Source: Hypericibacter terrae
GTDB lineage: Bacteria > Pseudomonadota > Alphaproteobacteria > Dongiales > Dongiaceae
Assembly: GCF_008728855.1 (NCBI RefSeq)
Contig: NZ_CP042906.1
Location: 124,001-188,000 of the forward strand
Reading direction: 5' to 3'
Length of the DNA stretch: 64,000 bases
Shown here: one piece after another, positions 4,827 to 52,662 of the stretch
Layout of the letters: every line of letters begins with the position of its first letter
Position numbering within the stretch: the first letter of the stretch is position 1
Position numbers and translations under genes: made by a program
Notes under the pieces: model-generated
What the model saw: the letters and a program-made list of their open reading frames with translations, nothing else
Database searches by the model: none
What the model was told of the DNA's origin: nothing

Positions 4827-4903
<77 letters not shown>

Positions 4904-45145: not shown

Positions 45146-45868
45146 ATGTCATTTCCCGATACCGCGATGGTTCTGGCGGCCGGCTTCGGCAAGCGCCTGC
45201 GGCCCTTGACCCAAGAAACGCCGAAGCCGCTGGTGAAGGTCGCGAACCGCGCGCTGATCGACTGGGTGCTGGACAGGCTGGTCGAAGGCGGCGTCAGGCG
45301 CGCCGTCGTCAACACGCACTGGCTGGGCGAGCGCATCGTCGAGCATCTCTCCCATCGCAGCGCGCCCGAGATCGTCTATTCGCACGAGGAGGAGATCCTC
45401 GAAACCGGCGGCGGCATCAAGAAGGCGCTGCCTTTGCTGGGGACGGGGCGCTTCTTCGCGGTCAATGCCAAGATCCTCTGGCTCGACGGCAAGACCAACG
45501 CGCTGCATCGGCTGGCCGCCGCCTGGGACGATGCGCGGATGGACGCACTCCTGCTGCTGCAGCCGACGGCCACGGCCGTCGGTTATGACGGCCAGGGCGA
45601 TTTCGCCCTCGATCCGCAAGGCGTCATCCGGCGGCGGCGCGAATGGGAGGTCAGCCCCTTTCTCTATTCCGGCATCCAGCTCCTGCATCCGCGCCTGTTC
45701 GACAACTCGCCGGACGGATTCTTCTCGCTCAATCTCCTCTATGACCGGGCGATCGAGGCAGGGCGGCTTTATGGGCTGCGCCATGACGGCGAGTGGTATC
45801 ATGTGAGCACGCCGCGGCAATTGACCGAGGTGGAGGAGCGCCTGGCCGAGGTGGGGTTCAGGCGCTGA
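45146..45868 (+). CDS. murU: Nucleotidyltransferase, MurU-like (N-acetylmuramate-1-phosphate uridylyltransferase)
   Basis: 240 residues. The nucleotide-binding loop AMVLAAGFGKRLRPLTQETP, followed by PKPLVKVANRALIDWVLD, EEEILETGGGIKKALPLL and FLYSGIQLLHPRLF define the sugar-phosphate nucleotidyltransferase family of MurU. Paired with the kinase 18 bases upstream, it likely makes UDP-MurNAc from recycled sugar. The metal-site Asp expected at FAVNAD reads FAVNAK in this protein, though LDG follows; this deserves a look. After the gene comes the long inverted repeat. Confidence 0.84.
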   Translation: MSFPDTAMVLAAGFGKRLRPLTQETPKPLVKVANRALIDWVLDRLVEGGVRRAVVNTHWLGERIVEHLSHRSAPEIVYSHEEEILETGGGIKKALPLLGTGRFFAVNAKILWLDGKTNALHRLAAAWDDARMDALLLLQPTATAVGYDGQGDFALDPQGVIRRRREWEVSPFLYSGIQLLHPRLFDNSPDGFFSLNLLYDRAIEAGRLYGLRHDGEWYHVSTPRQLTEVEERLAEVGFRR

Positions 45869-45890
45869 TAAAAGAGGGAACGCGATGATG

Positions 45891-46136
45891 CGAGAAACTC
45901 CACGCCCCCTCCCCTTGCGGGAGGGGGTAGGGGGAGGGGCGCTTCAAGTAAGAATGAGGACGTCGACTGCCGATCTCGACTGAAACCTGGTAGCAGAGCG
46001 TCGCGATCACATGCATTTGGGGCCGCCGACACGGAACCTTATCCGCAATGAGAGGTGGCGCGCGAGTTCTTCACGGATTCGCGAGAACCCCTCCCCCTAC
46101 CCCCTCCCGCAAGGGGAGGGGGCGTGGAGTTTCTCG
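45891..46136. repeat. Perfect 49-bp inverted repeat with internal hairpins
   Basis: Bases 45891-45939 (from CGAGAAACTCCACG to TAGGGGGAGGGG) are the exact reverse complement of 46088-46136, separated by 148 bases. Each arm contains its own hairpin CCCCCTCCC-CTTGC-GGGAGGGGG. Arms resemble the other paired GC-rich elements of the window but carry different ends (CGAGAAACTCCACG). The right arm ends two bases before the addB ATG, so transcripts could fold the addB ribosome site into a long stem. Confidence 0.9.
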
Positions 46137-46138
46137 TG

Positions 46139-49100
46139 ATGACGAGCCCTCACCTCCCGCCCGACCGCATCTTCTCGATCCCCGCGGGCGTGCCGTTCCT
46201 CGATGCGCTGGCGCGCCGTCTTCTGGCCGAGACTCATGACGATCCGCTGGCGCTCGGGCGCTATCGCGTGCTGCTGCCGACACGCCGGGCCTGCCGCGCG
46301 CTGCAGGAGACCTTCCTGCGCTTGCGCGAAGGCCGGCCGCTGCTGCTGCCGCAACTGACACCGCTGGGCGATATCGACGAAGAAGAGCTGGCGCTCGCGG
46401 CCGAGGCGGAAGAGCCTGGCGCCGCGCTCGACCTGCCGCCGGCGCTGCCGCCTCTGATGCGCCAACTGATGCTTTCGCGTCTGGTCGCGGGCGCGGCCGA
46501 GGCGCGCGGCGAATCGATGTCGGCCGACCGGGCGGCCTCGCTGGCGGAAGAGCTGGCGCGGCTGGTCGACCAGGTCGCGACCGAACGGCTGTCTTTCGAG
46601 CGGCTGGCCGAGATCGTGCCGGGCGAGCTGGCGCGGCATTGGCAGCTCACGGTCGAGTTCCTCGAGATCGTCACCAAGGCCTGGCCCAGGATCGAGAAGG
46701 CGGCGGGTGCGATCGGGGCGGCCGAGCGGCGCAATCTCCTGCTCGAGCGCCAGGCGCGGCTCTGGCTCAAATCGCCGCCGCAAGATCCGGTGATCGCGGC
46801 CGGATCGACGGGCTCGATCCCGGCCACCGCCGATCTGATCGCCGCGGTCGCGCAATTGCCGCAAGGCCGCGTGGTGCTGCCGGGCCTGGCCACCGGCGGC
46901 AATGCGGAGTTCTGGCAGAAGGTCGAGGCCGATCCGAGCCATCCCCAGCATGGGCTCCGGCTGTTGCTGCAGCGGCTGGATGTTGCGCCCGCAGCGGTGC
47001 TGCCCTGGCCCGACTCGCAGGCCCATCCCACGGTCGCGCGGCGCCAGGCCTTCCTCACCGAGGCGCTGGCCCCCGCCGATCTGACCCATCTCTGGAGCCG
47101 CCCCGATCGCGACGCCGCGGCCGACCGGATCGCACTCAAGGGCGAAGGCCATGAGATCGGCCTGACGCGGCTCGATTGCCCGGGCCTGAGCGAGGAGGCG
47201 CTCACCATCGCGCTCCTGATGCGCGAGGCGGTCGAGAAAAAAGGGCAGCGCGCGGCGCTGGTGACGCCGGATCGCTCCTTGGCGCGCCGTGTCGCCGCCG
47301 AGCTCAAGCGCTGGTCGATCGAGATCGACGATTCCGCCGGTACCGATCTGGGCCAGACGCCGCCCGGCAGCTTCCTGCGGCTGGTGGCAGCATTGCCGCT
47401 CGATGGCGTGGCGCCGGTGCCGCTGCTCTCTTTGCTGAAACATCCGCTGGCGGCCGGTGGCGAAGCGACGTCGGCGTTTCGCGCGAAGCTGCGGGCGCTG
47501 GAACGCGCGGCCTTGCGCGGGCCGCGGCCGGCGCCGGGTTTCGACGGCCTGCAGGCGGCCCTGGCGCCGTCGATCGAGCGCTATCCCGAGCTGGAGGGGC
47601 TGTCCTCCTGGCTCGACGGCATCGCCCGCGCCGCGGCGCCCTATCTCGAGCTTGCGGGTTCGCGCCGCGTGACGCTGGAAGACCTGATCCGCGCCCATCT
47701 GACGCTGGCCGAGGCCCTGGCCGCGAACGACGGCGAGACCGGCGCCTCGCGGCTGTGGCGCGGCGATGCCGGCGAAGCGGCGGCGGGCTTCTTCACCGAG
47801 TTCCTGGCCGCCTCCCGGGAACATGAGCCGATCGCGGGACCGGAATATCCGGCCCTGCTCGATGCCTTGATGGCGGCGCAGCGCGTGCGGCCCCGCTACG
47901 GCCGCCATCCGCGGCTGTTCGTCTGGGGTCCGCTCGAGGCGCGGCTGCAGCAGGTCGATCTGATGATCCTGGGCGGGCTCAACGAGGGCACCTGGCCGGT
48001 GACGCCCCCGCCCGATCCCTGGATGAGCCGGCCGATGCGCGAGGCCTTCGGCCTGCCGCCGGCGGAGCGGCGCATCGGCCTCTCGGCCCACGATTTCCAG
48101 CAGGCCTGCGGCGCGCCGCGCGTGGTGCTGACGCGCGCGCGCAAGGTGGATGGCACGCCCAGCGTGCCCTCGCGCTGGCTGACGCGCATAGATGCGCTGA
48201 TGAAGGCCGCGGGGCTCGATCCGGCGCTGCTCCAGGCGCCGCAATGGCTCGCCTGGGCCGCCGCCTGGGATCGTCCCGCAGGTCCGCCGCAACCGGTCGC
48301 GCGGCCCTCGCCCCGGCCGCCCGTGGAGGTCCGGCCGCACAAGCTCTCGGTCACCGAGATCGAGACCTGGAAGCGCGATCCTTACGCGATCTATGCGCGC
48401 CATATCCTGAAGCTCCGGCCGATGGAACCGATCGACGCGGCGGCGGAAGCCGCCGAGCGCGGCACCATCATCCACCAGGCGCTGGACGCCTTCATCCGCG
48501 CCTATCCGGACCGCTTGCCGGCCGATGCCTATGACAGGCTGATGCGCTTCGGGCGCGAGGCCTTCGGCGGCTGGCTCGACCGTCCTGCCGTCTGGGCCTT
48601 CTGGTGGCCGCGCTTCGAGCGTATCGCCGGCTGGTTCCTCGAGCAGCGCGCCAAGGAGTTGCCGGCGCTCCTGGAATCGCTCACCGAGCTCCGGGGCAAG
48701 ATCGAGATCGACGCCGGCGGCTTCGCCTTCACCCTCACCGCCAAGGCCGACCGGATCGACCGCCTGCGCGACGGCAGCACCGCCATCATCGACTACAAGA
48801 CCGGGGCGCTGCCCTCGGCCAGGATGGTGAAGCAGGGCTATGCGCCGCAATTGCCGCTGGAGGCGGCGATGGCGGCGCTGGGCGGCTTTCCCGATCTGGG
48901 CCGGGCGGTCGCGACGCGGCTCGATTACTGGCGTCTTTCCGGCGGCGACCCGCCCGGCCATATCGAGGTCGCCGGCGGCAAGGATGCCGATGCGGTGACC
49001 CTGGCCGAGGACGCGCTGGCGGGCCTGATCCGGCTCGTCGTCACCTTCGCGAATGAAGCGACGCCCTACGACTCCGAGCCGCATCCGGCCTATGCGCCGC

Positions 49101-49165
49101 ATTACAGCGATTACGGCCATCTCGCGCGCATCGCCGAATGGTCGGCCGCCGGAGGCGAGGAATGA
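46139..49165 (+). CDS. addB: Double-strand break repair protein AddB (helicase-like/nuclease subunit)
   Basis: 1008 residues. With AddA it resects broken DNA ends for recombination. The N-terminal region (RYRVLLPTRRACRALQETFL) lacks a functional Walker A, as in alphaproteobacterial AddB; the middle has RLFVWGPLEARLQQVDLMIL and LGGLNEGTWP; the C-terminus is a RecB-type nuclease (KLSVTEIETWKRDPYAIYAR, GTIIHQALDAF, AKADRIDRL, IIDYKTG). I start at ATG 46139: the longer opening from 46055 would translate straight through the inverted repeat (LPLPPPARGGGVEF) and is not protein-like. GGAG lies 11 bases before the ATG. Confidence 0.93.
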   Translation: MTSPHLPPDRIFSIPAGVPFLDALARRLLAETHDDPLALGRYRVLLPTRRACRALQETFLRLREGRPLLLPQLTPLGDIDEEELALAAEAEEPGAALDLPPALPPLMRQLMLSRLVAGAAEARGESMSADRAASLAEELARLVDQVATERLSFERLAEIVPGELARHWQLTVEFLEIVTKAWPRIEKAAGAIGAAERRNLLLERQARLWLKSPPQDPVIAAGSTGSIPATADLIAAVAQLPQGRVVLPGLATGGNAEFWQKVEADPSHPQHGLRLLLQRLDVAPAAVLPWPDSQAHPTVARRQAFLTEALAPADLTHLWSRPDRDAAADRIALKGEGHEIGLTRLDCPGLSEEALTIALLMREAVEKKGQRAALVTPDRSLARRVAAELKRWSIEIDDSAGTDLGQTPPGSFLRLVAALPLDGVAPVPLLSLLKHPLAAGGEATSAFRAKLRALERAALRGPRPAPGFDGLQAALAPSIERYPELEGLSSWLDGIARAAAPYLELAGSRRVTLEDLIRAHLTLAEALAANDGETGASRLWRGDAGEAAAGFFTEFLAASREHEPIAGPEYPALLDALMAAQRVRPRYGRHPRLFVWGPLEARLQQVDLMILGGLNEGTWPVTPPPDPWMSRPMREAFGLPPAERRIGLSAHDFQQACGAPRVVLTRARKVDGTPSVPSRWLTRIDALMKAAGLDPALLQAPQWLAWAAAWDRPAGPPQPVARPSPRPPVEVRPHKLSVTEIETWKRDPYAIYARHILKLRPMEPIDAAAEAAERGTIIHQALDAFIRAYPDRLPADAYDRLMRFGREAFGGWLDRPAVWAFWWPRFERIAGWFLEQRAKELPALLESLTELRGKIEIDAGGFAFTLTAKADRIDRLRDGSTAIIDYKTGALPSARMVKQGYAPQLPLEAAMAALGGFPDLGRAVATRLDYWRLSGGDPPGHIEVAGGKDADAVTLAEDALAGLIRLVVTFANEATPYDSEPHPAYAPHYSDYGHLARIAEWSAAGGEE

Positions 49166-52100
49166 GCCGCGCCGATACAACCGCACGGGATCCGATCAGG
49201 CTCGCCAGCGAGGCGCAGGCGCGGGCCGCCGATCCGCGCCATTCGGCCTGGGTGAGCGCCTCGGCCGGCAGCGGCAAGACCAAGCTCCTGGTCGATCGTC
49301 TGCTGCGGCTCCTGCTCGACGGCGTGCCGCCGACCAAAATTCTCTGTTTGACCTATACGCGCGCGGCTGCGGCCGAGATGCGCAACCGCATCGACGCGAC
49401 GCTCGCGAGCTGGGCCGCCTCGAATCCCGAGACCTTGCGCAAGTCGCTCACCGAGCTGACGCCGCAGGTCGCGACGACCGAGCTGCAGGACAAGGCGAAG
49501 CAGCTCTTCGCCAAGCTGCTCGATGCGCCGGGCGGCATGCGGATCGAGACGATCCATGCCTTCTGCCAGTCGCTCCTGGCGCGCTTCCCGGTCGAGGCCG
49601 GTATCGCGCCGCATTTCACCGTGCTCGAGGAGCGCGACGCGGAAGCGTTGCGCGCGGCCCTGCGCGAAGAGGTGCTGTCCGATGCGAGGGCGGGGCGCGA
49701 TCCCGCGCTCGCGCGGGCGCTGGCCGCCGTCACCGAGCGCGTCGGCAGCGAGGCCGAGTTCGACGAGCTCCTGCAGAAGCTGATGATCGAACGCCGCCGG
49801 CTGGAGGCCCTGGCCGCCGGGACCGGCGGGCTGGGGGCCGCGGTCAAGCGGCTGCGCCAGCGCCTGCGGCTGAAGCCCGACGACACGATCGAATCGCTCA
49901 TGACGGCGGCGGTCGCCGAGGGCGCCTTCGATCGTGCCGGCCTGACGCGCGCCGTCGAGGCGCTGAGCCTGGGCGGCAAGACCGACAAGGCTCACGCGCC
50001 GATCCTGGCCGAGTGGCTGGCGGGCGACGCGGCGGAGCGGCTGGCGAATTTCGATCTCTATCGCACCGTCTATTTCACAAGCAGCGGCTCGCCGCGTGCA
50101 AAACTCATCACCAAGGCGGGCGAGGATGCGCTGCCGGGCGCGGCCGAGGCGCTGACGGCGGAGCAGGACCGGCTGGTGCAGCTGGGCGAGCGGCTCAACG
50201 CCGCCGAGATCGCGACCGCGACCGAAGCGTTGCTGACCTTGGGCCGCGCGGTGCTGCTGGGCTATGCGCAGCGCAAGCGCGACATGGCGGCGCTCGATTA
50301 CGACGATCTCATCGTGCTGACGCGCGATCTGCTGCGCCGCCCCGGCCTGGCGCCCTGGGTTCTCTACAAGCTCGATGGCGGCATCGACCATATCCTGATC
50401 GACGAGGCGCAGGACACGAGCCCCGAGCAGTGGGACATCGTCGCCTCCATCGCCGACGAGTTCTTCGCCAATTGGGACACGCGCGCGACACCGCGCACGC
50501 TCTTCGCCGTCGGCGATGCCAAGCAGTCGATCTACAGCTTCCAGCGCGCCGATCCGGAAGGTTTCCGGCGCATGCGCGAGCATTTCCGCGCCAAGCTGAC
50601 CGAAGTGAAGGAGGTGCTGCTCGAGGAGCCCTTGCATGTCTCCTTCCGCTCGGTGCCGACCGTGCTGGAAGCGATCGACACGGTCTTCGCCGATCCGCAG
50701 GCCGCGGCCGGCGTCGCCCCGCCAGGCGAGGCGGTCGCGCATATCTCGGCCCGGCCCGGACAAGGCGGAAGGGTCGAGCTCTGGCCGATCGCGGTCGAGA
50801 TCAAGGGCGAGGAGCCGGAAGCCTGGAGCCTGCCGGCGGTGGTCGACGATGTCGATCTGCCACGCGCGCGTCTGGCCCGGACCCTCGCCGCGCGCATTGC
50901 CGAGATGATCGGCCATGACGAGCTGCCCTCGCGCGGACGCAAGGTCCGGCCCGGCGACATCTTGGTGCTGGTCAGGCGCCGCAACGCCTTCGTCGAAGAG
51001 CTGGTGCGCGAGCTCAAGGACAAGAATGTCGAGGTCGCCGGTATCGACCGCCTCAAGCTCGACGAGCATATCGCCGTCATGGACCTGATGGCGCTGGGTC
51101 ACTTCCTGCTGATGCCCGAAGACGATCTCACGCTGGCGACGGTGCTGAAGAGCCCGCTGGTCGGACTCGACGAGGCGGCGCTGTTCGATCTGGCACATGA
51201 TCGCGGGACGCAGACGCTCTGGCGCAGCCTGACCGAGCGCGCGGGCTTGCGGCCGGATTTCGCCGCGGCCCACGCGCTCCTGGCCGATCTCCTCGCCCAT
51301 GTCGATTTCCTGCCGCCCTTCGAGCTCTATGCCGAGATCCTCGGTGCGCGGGGCGGGCGCAGGCGCATGCTGGCGCGGCTGGGGCCGGACGCGGCCGATC
51401 CCGTCGAGGAGTTCCTGCGCCTCGCGCTCGATCACGGCCGCAGCCATCCGCCCTCGCTCCAAGGCTTCCTCGCCTGGCTCGAGGCGGGCTCGATCGAGGT
51501 CAAGCGCGACCTGGACCAGGAGACGAACGAACCCGGGAGCGCAGGCCAGGTGCGGATCATGACGGTGCATGGCGCCAAGGGCCTCGAGGCGCCGATCGTG
51601 ATTCTGCCCGACACGGCGCAGGTGCCCAAACAGACCGAGCGCATTCTCTGGGCGGGCGAAGGCGACAGCGCCTTGCCGCTCTGGGTGCGGCGCAAGGGCT
51701 TCGACGAGGAGCTGGCGACCGCGGCGCGCGCGCAGCGCGACGCGGCGCAGGCGGACGAATATCGCCGGCTGCTCTATGTCGGCCTCACGCGCGCCGCCGA
51801 CCGGCTCTATCTCTGCGGCTGGGACTCGCGCAAGAGCGGCCAGCCCTTGAGCTGGTACGAGCATCTCGTGGCCACTCTCGCCGACAAGGGCGAGGCGCTG
51901 AGCTTCGCGCCGGCCGACGCGCGACCGGAAGGCTGGCAGGGCCCGAGCCGCGCCATCGCCGCCGCCTCGACTGCGGCACCCGACAAGGCGAGGGCGCAAG
52001 GGACGGTTGTGCTGGTGCCGCCGCCGCCGCCCGACTCGCTGCGCCAGCCGGCGGGGAGAGAGCCCGAGCCCTGGCGGCCGGTGGCCCCGTCGCGGCCCGC

Positions 52101-52662
52101 GATCGCCGAGCCGGGCCTCCTTTCGCCGCTGCGCCAGGGCGATGCGCAAGCGACGCGTTTCGGGCGCGGCCTGCTGATCCATCGGCTGCTGCAAAGCCTG
52201 CCGGAGATTGCGCCGTCGCGGCGCAAGGCGGCGGCGCAGCAGCTCTTGAAGCGCTCGCTCTATGGGCTGGATCCCGCGGCGCGCGAGGAGCTCCTGGCGC
52301 GCGTGCTCGATCTCCTGGCGCGGCCCGATCTGGCGCCGATCTGGTCGCCGAAGGCCCGCGCCGAGCAGCCGATCGCCGGCGAGGTGATCGGCCGGCACGG
52401 GAACAGCCTCGCGATCGCCGGCCAGATCGACCGCTTCGCCGTCGATGCGAACGGCGTCTGGATCGTCGATTTCAAGACCAACCGGCCGCCGGCCTCGAGT
52501 CTCGACGAGGTGCCGGCCGCCTATCTGCGCCAGATGGCCGCCTACCGCGCGCTGCTGGCCGGCATTTACCCCGGCTTGCCAATCGCTTGCCACCTGCTCT
52601 GGACAGAGACCCCGTTGCTGATGCGGTTACCGGACGAACTCCTTGACGCGCATCTGCCATGA
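49162..52662 (+). CDS. addA: Double-strand break repair helicase-nuclease AddA
   Basis: 1166 residues, ATG overlapping the addB stop (ATGA). UvrD-type helicase: Walker A VSASAGSGKTKLLVDRLL (Lys39), LCLTYTRAAAAEM, ETIHAFCQSLLARFP, DYDDLI, ILIDEAQDTSPEQW, VGDAKQSIYSFQRADP, MTVHGAKGLEAPIV and LLYVGLTRAADRLYL. The C-terminal nuclease has IAGQIDRFAV and WIVDFKTNRPP. It is the motor and one of the two nucleases of AddAB, the RecBCD counterpart in alphaproteobacteria. The antisense strand is open for >1,100 codons but this is a codon-composition effect. Confidence 0.97.
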   Translation: MSRADTTARDPIRLASEAQARAADPRHSAWVSASAGSGKTKLLVDRLLRLLLDGVPPTKILCLTYTRAAAAEMRNRIDATLASWAASNPETLRKSLTELTPQVATTELQDKAKQLFAKLLDAPGGMRIETIHAFCQSLLARFPVEAGIAPHFTVLEERDAEALRAALREEVLSDARAGRDPALARALAAVTERVGSEAEFDELLQKLMIERRRLEALAAGTGGLGAAVKRLRQRLRLKPDDTIESLMTAAVAEGAFDRAGLTRAVEALSLGGKTDKAHAPILAEWLAGDAAERLANFDLYRTVYFTSSGSPRAKLITKAGEDALPGAAEALTAEQDRLVQLGERLNAAEIATATEALLTLGRAVLLGYAQRKRDMAALDYDDLIVLTRDLLRRPGLAPWVLYKLDGGIDHILIDEAQDTSPEQWDIVASIADEFFANWDTRATPRTLFAVGDAKQSIYSFQRADPEGFRRMREHFRAKLTEVKEVLLEEPLHVSFRSVPTVLEAIDTVFADPQAAAGVAPPGEAVAHISARPGQGGRVELWPIAVEIKGEEPEAWSLPAVVDDVDLPRARLARTLAARIAEMIGHDELPSRGRKVRPGDILVLVRRRNAFVEELVRELKDKNVEVAGIDRLKLDEHIAVMDLMALGHFLLMPEDDLTLATVLKSPLVGLDEAALFDLAHDRGTQTLWRSLTERAGLRPDFAAAHALLADLLAHVDFLPPFELYAEILGARGGRRRMLARLGPDAADPVEEFLRLALDHGRSHPPSLQGFLAWLEAGSIEVKRDLDQETNEPGSAGQVRIMTVHGAKGLEAPIVILPDTAQVPKQTERILWAGEGDSALPLWVRRKGFDEELATAARAQRDAAQADEYRRLLYVGLTRAADRLYLCGWDSRKSGQPLSWYEHLVATLADKGEALSFAPADARPEGWQGPSRAIAAASTAAPDKARAQGTVVLVPPPPPDSLRQPAGREPEPWRPVAPSRPAIAEPGLLSPLRQGDAQATRFGRGLLIHRLLQSLPEIAPSRRKAAAQQLLKRSLYGLDPAAREELLARVLDLLARPDLAPIWSPKARAEQPIAGEVIGRHGNSLAIAGQIDRFAVDANGVWIVDFKTNRPPASSLDEVPAAYLRQMAAYRALLAGIYPGLPIACHLLWTETPLLMRLPDELLDAHLP

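Follow-up and report, generated by a model that had tools for sequence, protein, structure and literature searches.

The perfect inverted repeat that ends just upstream of addB is, by its sequence, a pair of intrastrand triplex motif (TM) repeats of class II, the triplex form itself being putative. The copy is best read as a gene-less TM element of a kind associated with DUF559 (PF04480) genes, since its 35-nt core also flanks a DUF559 gene elsewhere in this genome (L293, 1473967–1474275), within 41-nt arms that match at 100%. We consider it reasonably likely that such pairs form a small mobile-element family, in which the DUF559 protein would cut TM, repair would copy the elements, and gene-less members such as the addB copy would have spread in trans.

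The window (the whole 64-kb stretch of DNA that was analysed) places the repeat between a gene for a nucleotidyltransferase (45146–45868, forward strand) and addB (46139–49165, forward; TIGR02786, 1010 bits, cut-off 486.5), which is followed by addA (49138–52662, forward; TIGR02784, 1206.8 bits, cut-off 860.75). The upstream gene matches NF045697 (MurU) at E 5.2e-72 and is called MurU-like because its 242 bits fall below the curated cut-off of 370. An inverted-repeat search of 45500–46500 (minimum 12 nt, seed 9) returned one pair, 45891–45939 and 46088–46136, complementary at 49/49 nt (100%) with 148 nt between the arms; the inner hairpin of each arm, folded alone, reaches −29.2 and −26.9 kcal/mol. 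Repeat search and folds bear out the earlier description of two perfectly complementary 49-nt arms, 148 nt apart and each with an inner hairpin, and also the placement of the right arm directly before the addB ATG: the arm stops at 46136, 2 nt short of the ATG at 46139–46141. Further upstream the addB frame stays open as far as a GTG at 46055, and an in-frame GTG (46136–46138) immediately precedes the ATG. The left arm, on the forward strand, consists of a head (CGAGAAACTCCACG), a hairpin and a third-strand tail that points inward; its core, CCCCCTCCCCTTGCGGGAGGGGGTAGGGGGAGGGG (45905–45939), comprises a C-rich stem, a complementary stem and a mirror third strand. By pattern match, the arm's G-rich half also conforms to a four-run G-quadruplex motif (GGGAGGGGGTAGGGGGAGGGG, 45919–45939, forward), the folding of which is putative. 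The right arm is the exact reverse complement of the left, with its core at 46088–46122 on the reverse strand, and the whole forms a 246-bp, tail-in TM pair. The 148-nt spacer (45940–46087) is gene-free and resembles, over ~70–80 nt at 66–68%, the sequence beside three other units of the family (L006, L201, L215; E 1.3e-5 to 6.9e-4). Immediately outside both arms stands TGATG, at 45886–45890 on the left and at 46137–46141 on the right, where it takes in the beginning of the addB ATG region.

The element belongs to a large dispersed family. The 35-nt core (family A) occurs in 170 copies in this genome, a single contig of 5.89 Mb (84 and 86 by strand, at most 3 mismatches), against 0+0 for the reversed pattern; the congener has 106 copies (55+51), and the core was absent from all 15 other family genomes searched. 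A second family, B, counts 40 copies here and 31 in the congener. In the stretches that were read, family-A units stand singly, as head-in pairs, or as tail-in pairs like the addB copy, and the majority of core copies in this genome are head-in pairs or single units rather than tail-in ones. One tail-in subfamily (L164, L174, L004, L005, L007, L008, L015, L197) keeps 132–134 nt between its cores and shares the spacer and part of the flanks; copies in the congener often read TTGGGGG where these have TAGGGGG, which has the look of concerted evolution. At L213:702–1282 there is a local tandem array of three like-oriented family-A units, which recur in steps of ~228 nt and share their flanks. Across 10 orthologous loci of the two species, 598/622 aligned core positions are identical, compared with 2715/3549 in the surroundings, a comparison that includes one poor pair (L189/L240, core match 23/35). 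The exact identity of the addB arms had been taken earlier to suggest recent formation, gene conversion or a function; because family cores are nearly invariant between the species, the perfect arms need no recent local event, and the pattern of conservation fits homogenisation of, or selection on, the core.

All three core families found (A, B and C) fit the TM definition with a stem of 8 and at most one mismatch per pairing: a C-rich stem is followed by its reverse-complement stem and by a third stem mirroring the second, with short loops between. TM, TMECO and PIT elements are the subject of Holder et al. 2015 (PMC4666352), whose TM, in the accessible part of that paper, share with the present repeats the C-rich stem, the complementary G-rich stem and the mirror third strand, as well as an intergenic position, high copy number and frequent inverted pairing. 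The same part of the paper calls the origin of TM unclear and states that mobility genes were never found near TMECO (PMC4666352); in contrast, the pairs studied here enclose or adjoin DUF559 genes. A description of a link between TM and DUF559 was not found in the open-licence papers searched.

It was the family-B pairs that first led to loci enclosing a small DUF559 gene. This genome has four such genes, each between inverted TM-type arms: one pair of family A (41 nt, 100%), two of family B (51 nt, 86%; 42 nt, 93%) and one of family C (45 nt, 87%). A wider set of 90 DUF559 loci was assembled from this genome, 144 genomes of the class and 17 of the family: of 71 class matches at E ≤ 1.5e-25, 70 were taken, the exception lying at a contig edge; 20 loci were then added, L364 (contig edge) being omitted and L381 merged with L380. 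An inverted repeat scoring at least 16 flanks DUF559 at 59/90 loci, compared with 0/174 windows shifted by 900 bp at the same loci. When upstream and downstream windows were drawn from different loci, 71/600 matched at that score because TM repeats resemble one another, which makes this the weaker of the two flank controls. Lowering the score to 14 gives 66/90 for DUF559, 6/174 for shifted windows and 120/600 for mismatched loci. Among the matches listed in a search of the phylum Pseudomonadota, 27 further loci were flanked in 13 cases (7/13 alphaproteobacterial, 6/14 others), against 1/54 shifted windows, and ordinary ORFs in 80 named loci had a flanking inverted repeat in 2/221 cases. A clear flanking repeat was not found at 31/90 and 14/27 of the DUF559 loci in the two sets. 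Counted instead as a TM unit within 160 bp of DUF559, at least one side is positive at 73/117 loci and both sides at 33/117, with 2/230 and 0/230 in the shifted-window control. The arms lie close to the DUF559 domain (median distances 30 and 36.5 nt) and are strongly oriented, with 54 tail-in, 6 tail-out and 12 unclear among 72.

The association extends to whole genomes. The strict TM pattern is present in 17/144 genomes of the class, with 0 for the reversed control, and all 17 fall within both the set of 54 genomes in which DUF559 matches at all and the set of 38 in which the match is strong (for strong matches p 5.6e-12, uncorrected for phylogeny and G+C). Restricted to genomes of at least 3 Mb, 15/15 TM genomes are DUF559-positive (p 8.7e-7, likewise uncorrected for phylogeny and G+C). 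Inspection by eye of the listed copies shows that every one of the 17 TM genomes has one or more that lie far from its DUF559 genes or on a different contig, so the co-occurrence test does not merely restate the flank result. The DUF559-negative calls may be incomplete, because the profile search gave no PF04480 match in the E. coli control genome, though ycjD of MG1655 is annotated as DUF559.

Plasmids present the same arrangement. Of 40 plasmid matches listed, six records were opened, chosen for variety, together with E. coli KE47; inverted repeats flank DUF559 in 5/6 of the plasmid records. Flanked genes are found in Sphingomonas parapaucimobilis, Azospirillum lipoferum 4B and Deinococcus sp. 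NW-56, in Picosynechococcus PCC 7002 (flanks of 17 nt, 88%), and on pSymB of Sinorhizobium meliloti Ak57, where 114-nt arms (96%), each itself a pair of TM units, surround the endonuclease gene (L413:1049–1738); in Shinella an inverted pair stands upstream of DUF559 only. E. coli K-12 MG1655 has two TM-type units (25 nt, 80% inverted) between fabI and ycjD (L415:2405–2620), the second of which reaches into the end of ycjD, and KE47 has a 40-nt, 85% pair between the same genes; in both strains the whole pair stands to one side of ycjD. The fabI–sapF interval is polymorphic, with 80% or more of its MG1655 form present in 3333/5426 E. coli genomes. An E. coli strain that lacks ycjD carries an efflux operon there instead, which corresponds to eefRABCD as given in the available text of PMC12817139.

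DUF559 is a plausible endonuclease. Its E-x-D-G motif is kept in 113/114 open domains, and the proteins match the endonuclease-like structure 3hrl (2.5e-27) and, weakly, the mobile intron protein 3r3p (E 0.14) in the PDB. In the available portions of the sources, YcjD is assigned to the PD-(D/E)XK nucleases near Vsr (PMC1189080), and Vsr, YcjD and Caulobacter VsrA share their nuclease fold with DUF559 (PMC12907096). Vsr-fold homing endonucleases of the I-Bth0305I type (PDB 3r3p) have the same nuclease fold; unlike those enzymes, which are borne by introns or inteins, DUF559 sits here between TM units. A role in anti-phage defence was also considered and set aside, PADLOC matches being weak (best E 0.0027).

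Several comparisons would fit movement. The two family-B DUF559 elements of this genome align over 428 bp (82%) and their flanks do not, and elements with and without DUF559 are placed differently between the two sister species. The aligned junctions here lack the DUF559 genes of congener loci L372 and L376 and carry other hairpin sequence. The left flank of element L290 is found in the congener without an adjacent DUF559, its right flank not being found there. The congener's DUF559 copy with family-A arms is frame-broken. Junction L292/L379 differs between the two species both in its DUF559 gene and in its arms; at this junction, and at L372/L423 and L376/L424, the species differ in TM family or DUF559 gene at the same intergenic spot, which suggests permissive or hot sites. 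Two sources of element boundaries proved unusable: L271, L274 and L283, three near-identical segments of ~380–400 bp here with the same family-B element and flanking sequence, were rejected as transposon boundaries since their homology runs beyond the element, as though a larger segment had been copied, and empty-site boundaries of other elements could not be drawn, the intergenic regions of this genome and the congener being too diverged. Target-site duplication, counted as 5-bp matches, shows no excess in any of three sets: 1 observed against 1.0 expected in 29 family-A tail-in pairs, 3 against 2.9 in 60 family-A head-in pairs, and 0 against 0.2 in 21 family-B pairs. On these counts target-site duplication was rejected as a feature of the family and DDE-type transposition is unsupported; because there is no family-wide excess, the TGATG at addB may be a chance match. 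Repair-dependent copying triggered by a nuclease, a mechanism that we infer, would agree better with the missing duplication than a DDE transposase does.

The proposed building block is the 35-nt hairpin with its mirror-image third strand. Two blocks, inverted and tail-in, would make one element, and some elements would enclose only a DUF559 gene. DUF559, as a Vsr-like PD-(D/E)XK endonuclease, would recognise the TM structure and cut there; host double-strand-break repair, possibly AddAB-dependent, would then copy either the whole element or its arms, into new sites or ones that already exist. The addB copy and other gene-less pairs would spread in trans, and their arms would be kept alike. 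DUF559 is in this scheme a candidate mobiliser of TM repeats, proposed from genomic context. A broader claim is that DUF559 with an inverted TM pair is a separate class of mobile element, copied by nuclease-triggered repair without a transposase and with gene-less pairs moved in trans, and that it is the source of the TM/PIT repeats in more than 260 genomes, including E. coli K-12; we advance it tentatively, as somewhat less likely than not.

The same associations could arise if something else spread the TM pairs and DUF559, as a homing-type or selfish endonuclease gene, invaded them as a passenger. The existence of Vsr-fold homing enzymes, among them the weakly matching 3r3p, speaks for this, as do the three unrelated arm families that carry DUF559 in one genome, the sister species with different DUF559 genes and arms at one junction, and the correlation between arm and protein similarity, which is weak (rho 0.17; 14/1000 permutations as high). 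Against it, every genome in which the TM motif was found is DUF559-positive (17/17), and no Y1 transposase was found in this genome. We regard the passenger explanation as unlikely, though it is to be taken seriously, and retain DUF559 as the probable mobiliser.

At addB itself the element seems, from its flanks, to have inserted between an ancestral Shine-Dalgarno sequence and the start codon. Joined without the element, the flanks read AGAGGGA-AACGCG-ATGATG, that is, a Shine-Dalgarno sequence, six bases and ATGATG; because the joined flanks restore this 6-nt spacing, the element seems to have parted AGAGGGA (45873–45879, forward), the probable ancestral Shine-Dalgarno, from the addB start. 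The ancestral start would have been left to open a 32-codon leader ORF (45885–45983, forward), predicted by translation to cross the left arm. With the right arm addB would have gained a new GGAG (46126–46129, forward), 9 nt before the ATG and now the nearest Shine-Dalgarno-like sequence. The RNA of 45880–46145 is predicted to fold at −174.2 kcal/mol, against a shuffle mean of −104.1 (sd 5.3, n=200; z −13.3), and 0/200 shuffles fold as well. For GGAG, folding of the full leader predicts an unpaired probability of 0.0 and a local fold one of 0.03, and for GTGATG the two values are 0.32 and 0.42; at the flank-joined site the values are 0.30 for the Shine-Dalgarno and 0.81 for ATGATG. Translation of addB would probably be lowered, or made dependent on ribosome traffic from upstream, and the predicted folds suggest that lower initiation could be eased once ribosomes cross the left arm.

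Whether the repeat is kept as a riboswitch-like or attenuator leader that regulates addB translation is a separate matter. Its very stable predicted RNA fold, the GGAG buried in both predicted folds and the leader ORF that spans the left arm would all suit such a device. Against these stand the dispersal of the element across the genome and the comparison with relatives. The murU–addB junction of the congener (L131:1332–1481) carries a family-B TM pair instead of the family-A pair, so this junction has been struck by different families in the two species, and an empty counterpart was not found in the congener, where the family-B pair occupies the site. Two unrelated TM elements, one of family A and one of family B, are in this way seen in one very short junction of two species. 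In 3/8 distinct relatives compared (L132, L133, L135; read by eye), murU and addB touch or lie at most 5 nt apart, repeat-free and with no space for a leader. In Rfam the only gathering-level match in the window is a tRNA at 4830–4903, and no family matches at the addB leader. A conserved addB switch is unsupported because the congener holds another family and three relatives have no repeat, and regulation as the reason for the repeat's maintenance is very unlikely. Of the control over addB translation that the earlier note proposed, what survives is the predicted burial of GGAG, as a property of one inserted copy.

The repeats also invite comparison with REPINs, which are inverted palindrome pairs with short spacers, intergenic and high in copy number, whose palindromes carry a foot tag of the GTAG or CGTC type and whose partnership with RAYT is not known to leave target duplications. 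After the stem, the core here reads GGGGGTAGGGGG, which contains the string GTAG. As with REP/REPIN and RAYT (TnpA-REP), small inverted palindrome pairs occur together with a one-gene partner that these palindromes also flank; the partner here is a candidate PD-(D/E)XK endonuclease, whereas that of REP/REPIN is a Y1 HUH enzyme. A REPIN-type element moved by a RAYT (Y1) transposase that the lineage has since lost would account for the inverted palindrome pairs, the short spacers, the intergenic position, the high copy number and the lack of target-site duplication. However, the pairs contain DUF559 instead, and a PF01797 (Y1/RAYT) profile search, made of this genome only, gave 0 matches though the control set was positive in 5/14 genomes; a lost RAYT is very unlikely indeed. 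A likeness to MITEs is also apparent, these elements too being short, gene-less, bounded by inverted terminal repeats and accompanied by gene-bearing copies. Unlike MITEs, the present family has no family-wide target-site duplication. A gene-bearing copy with the same core exists in this genome, and its gene is DUF559.

The idea that TM pairs are terminators or insulators, placed by selection around many genes including DUF559, draws on their highly stable hairpin and intergenic position; yet ordinary ORFs are flanked at only 2/221, no T-run follows the G-rich tail, and tail-in orientation is strongly preferred (54 vs 6), which leaves this idea extremely improbable. An assembly error, raised earlier as a possible undoing of the repeat, is unlikely, and an artefact or chance palindrome at addB has a negligible chance of being the explanation, given 170 core copies against 0 in the reversed-pattern control and the same architecture in the congener, an independent genome.

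On its own, the addB copy is an ordinary member of its repeat family, and the wider meaning lies in the partnership with DUF559. A DUF559 gene within or beside TM is a concrete and testable candidate for the origin of TM, which the accessible part of Holder et al. 2015 leaves open (PMC4666352), and TM would in turn be the likely substrate of the widespread DUF559 family. If the proposal is true, DUF559–TM elements, ~430 bp long and with a single Vsr-fold nuclease between two triplex-forming ends, would be among the smallest mobile elements known, and one element class would have spawned hundreds of gene-less pairs. The DUF559–TM pairing would then be a second, independently built counterpart of the REP–RAYT partnership.
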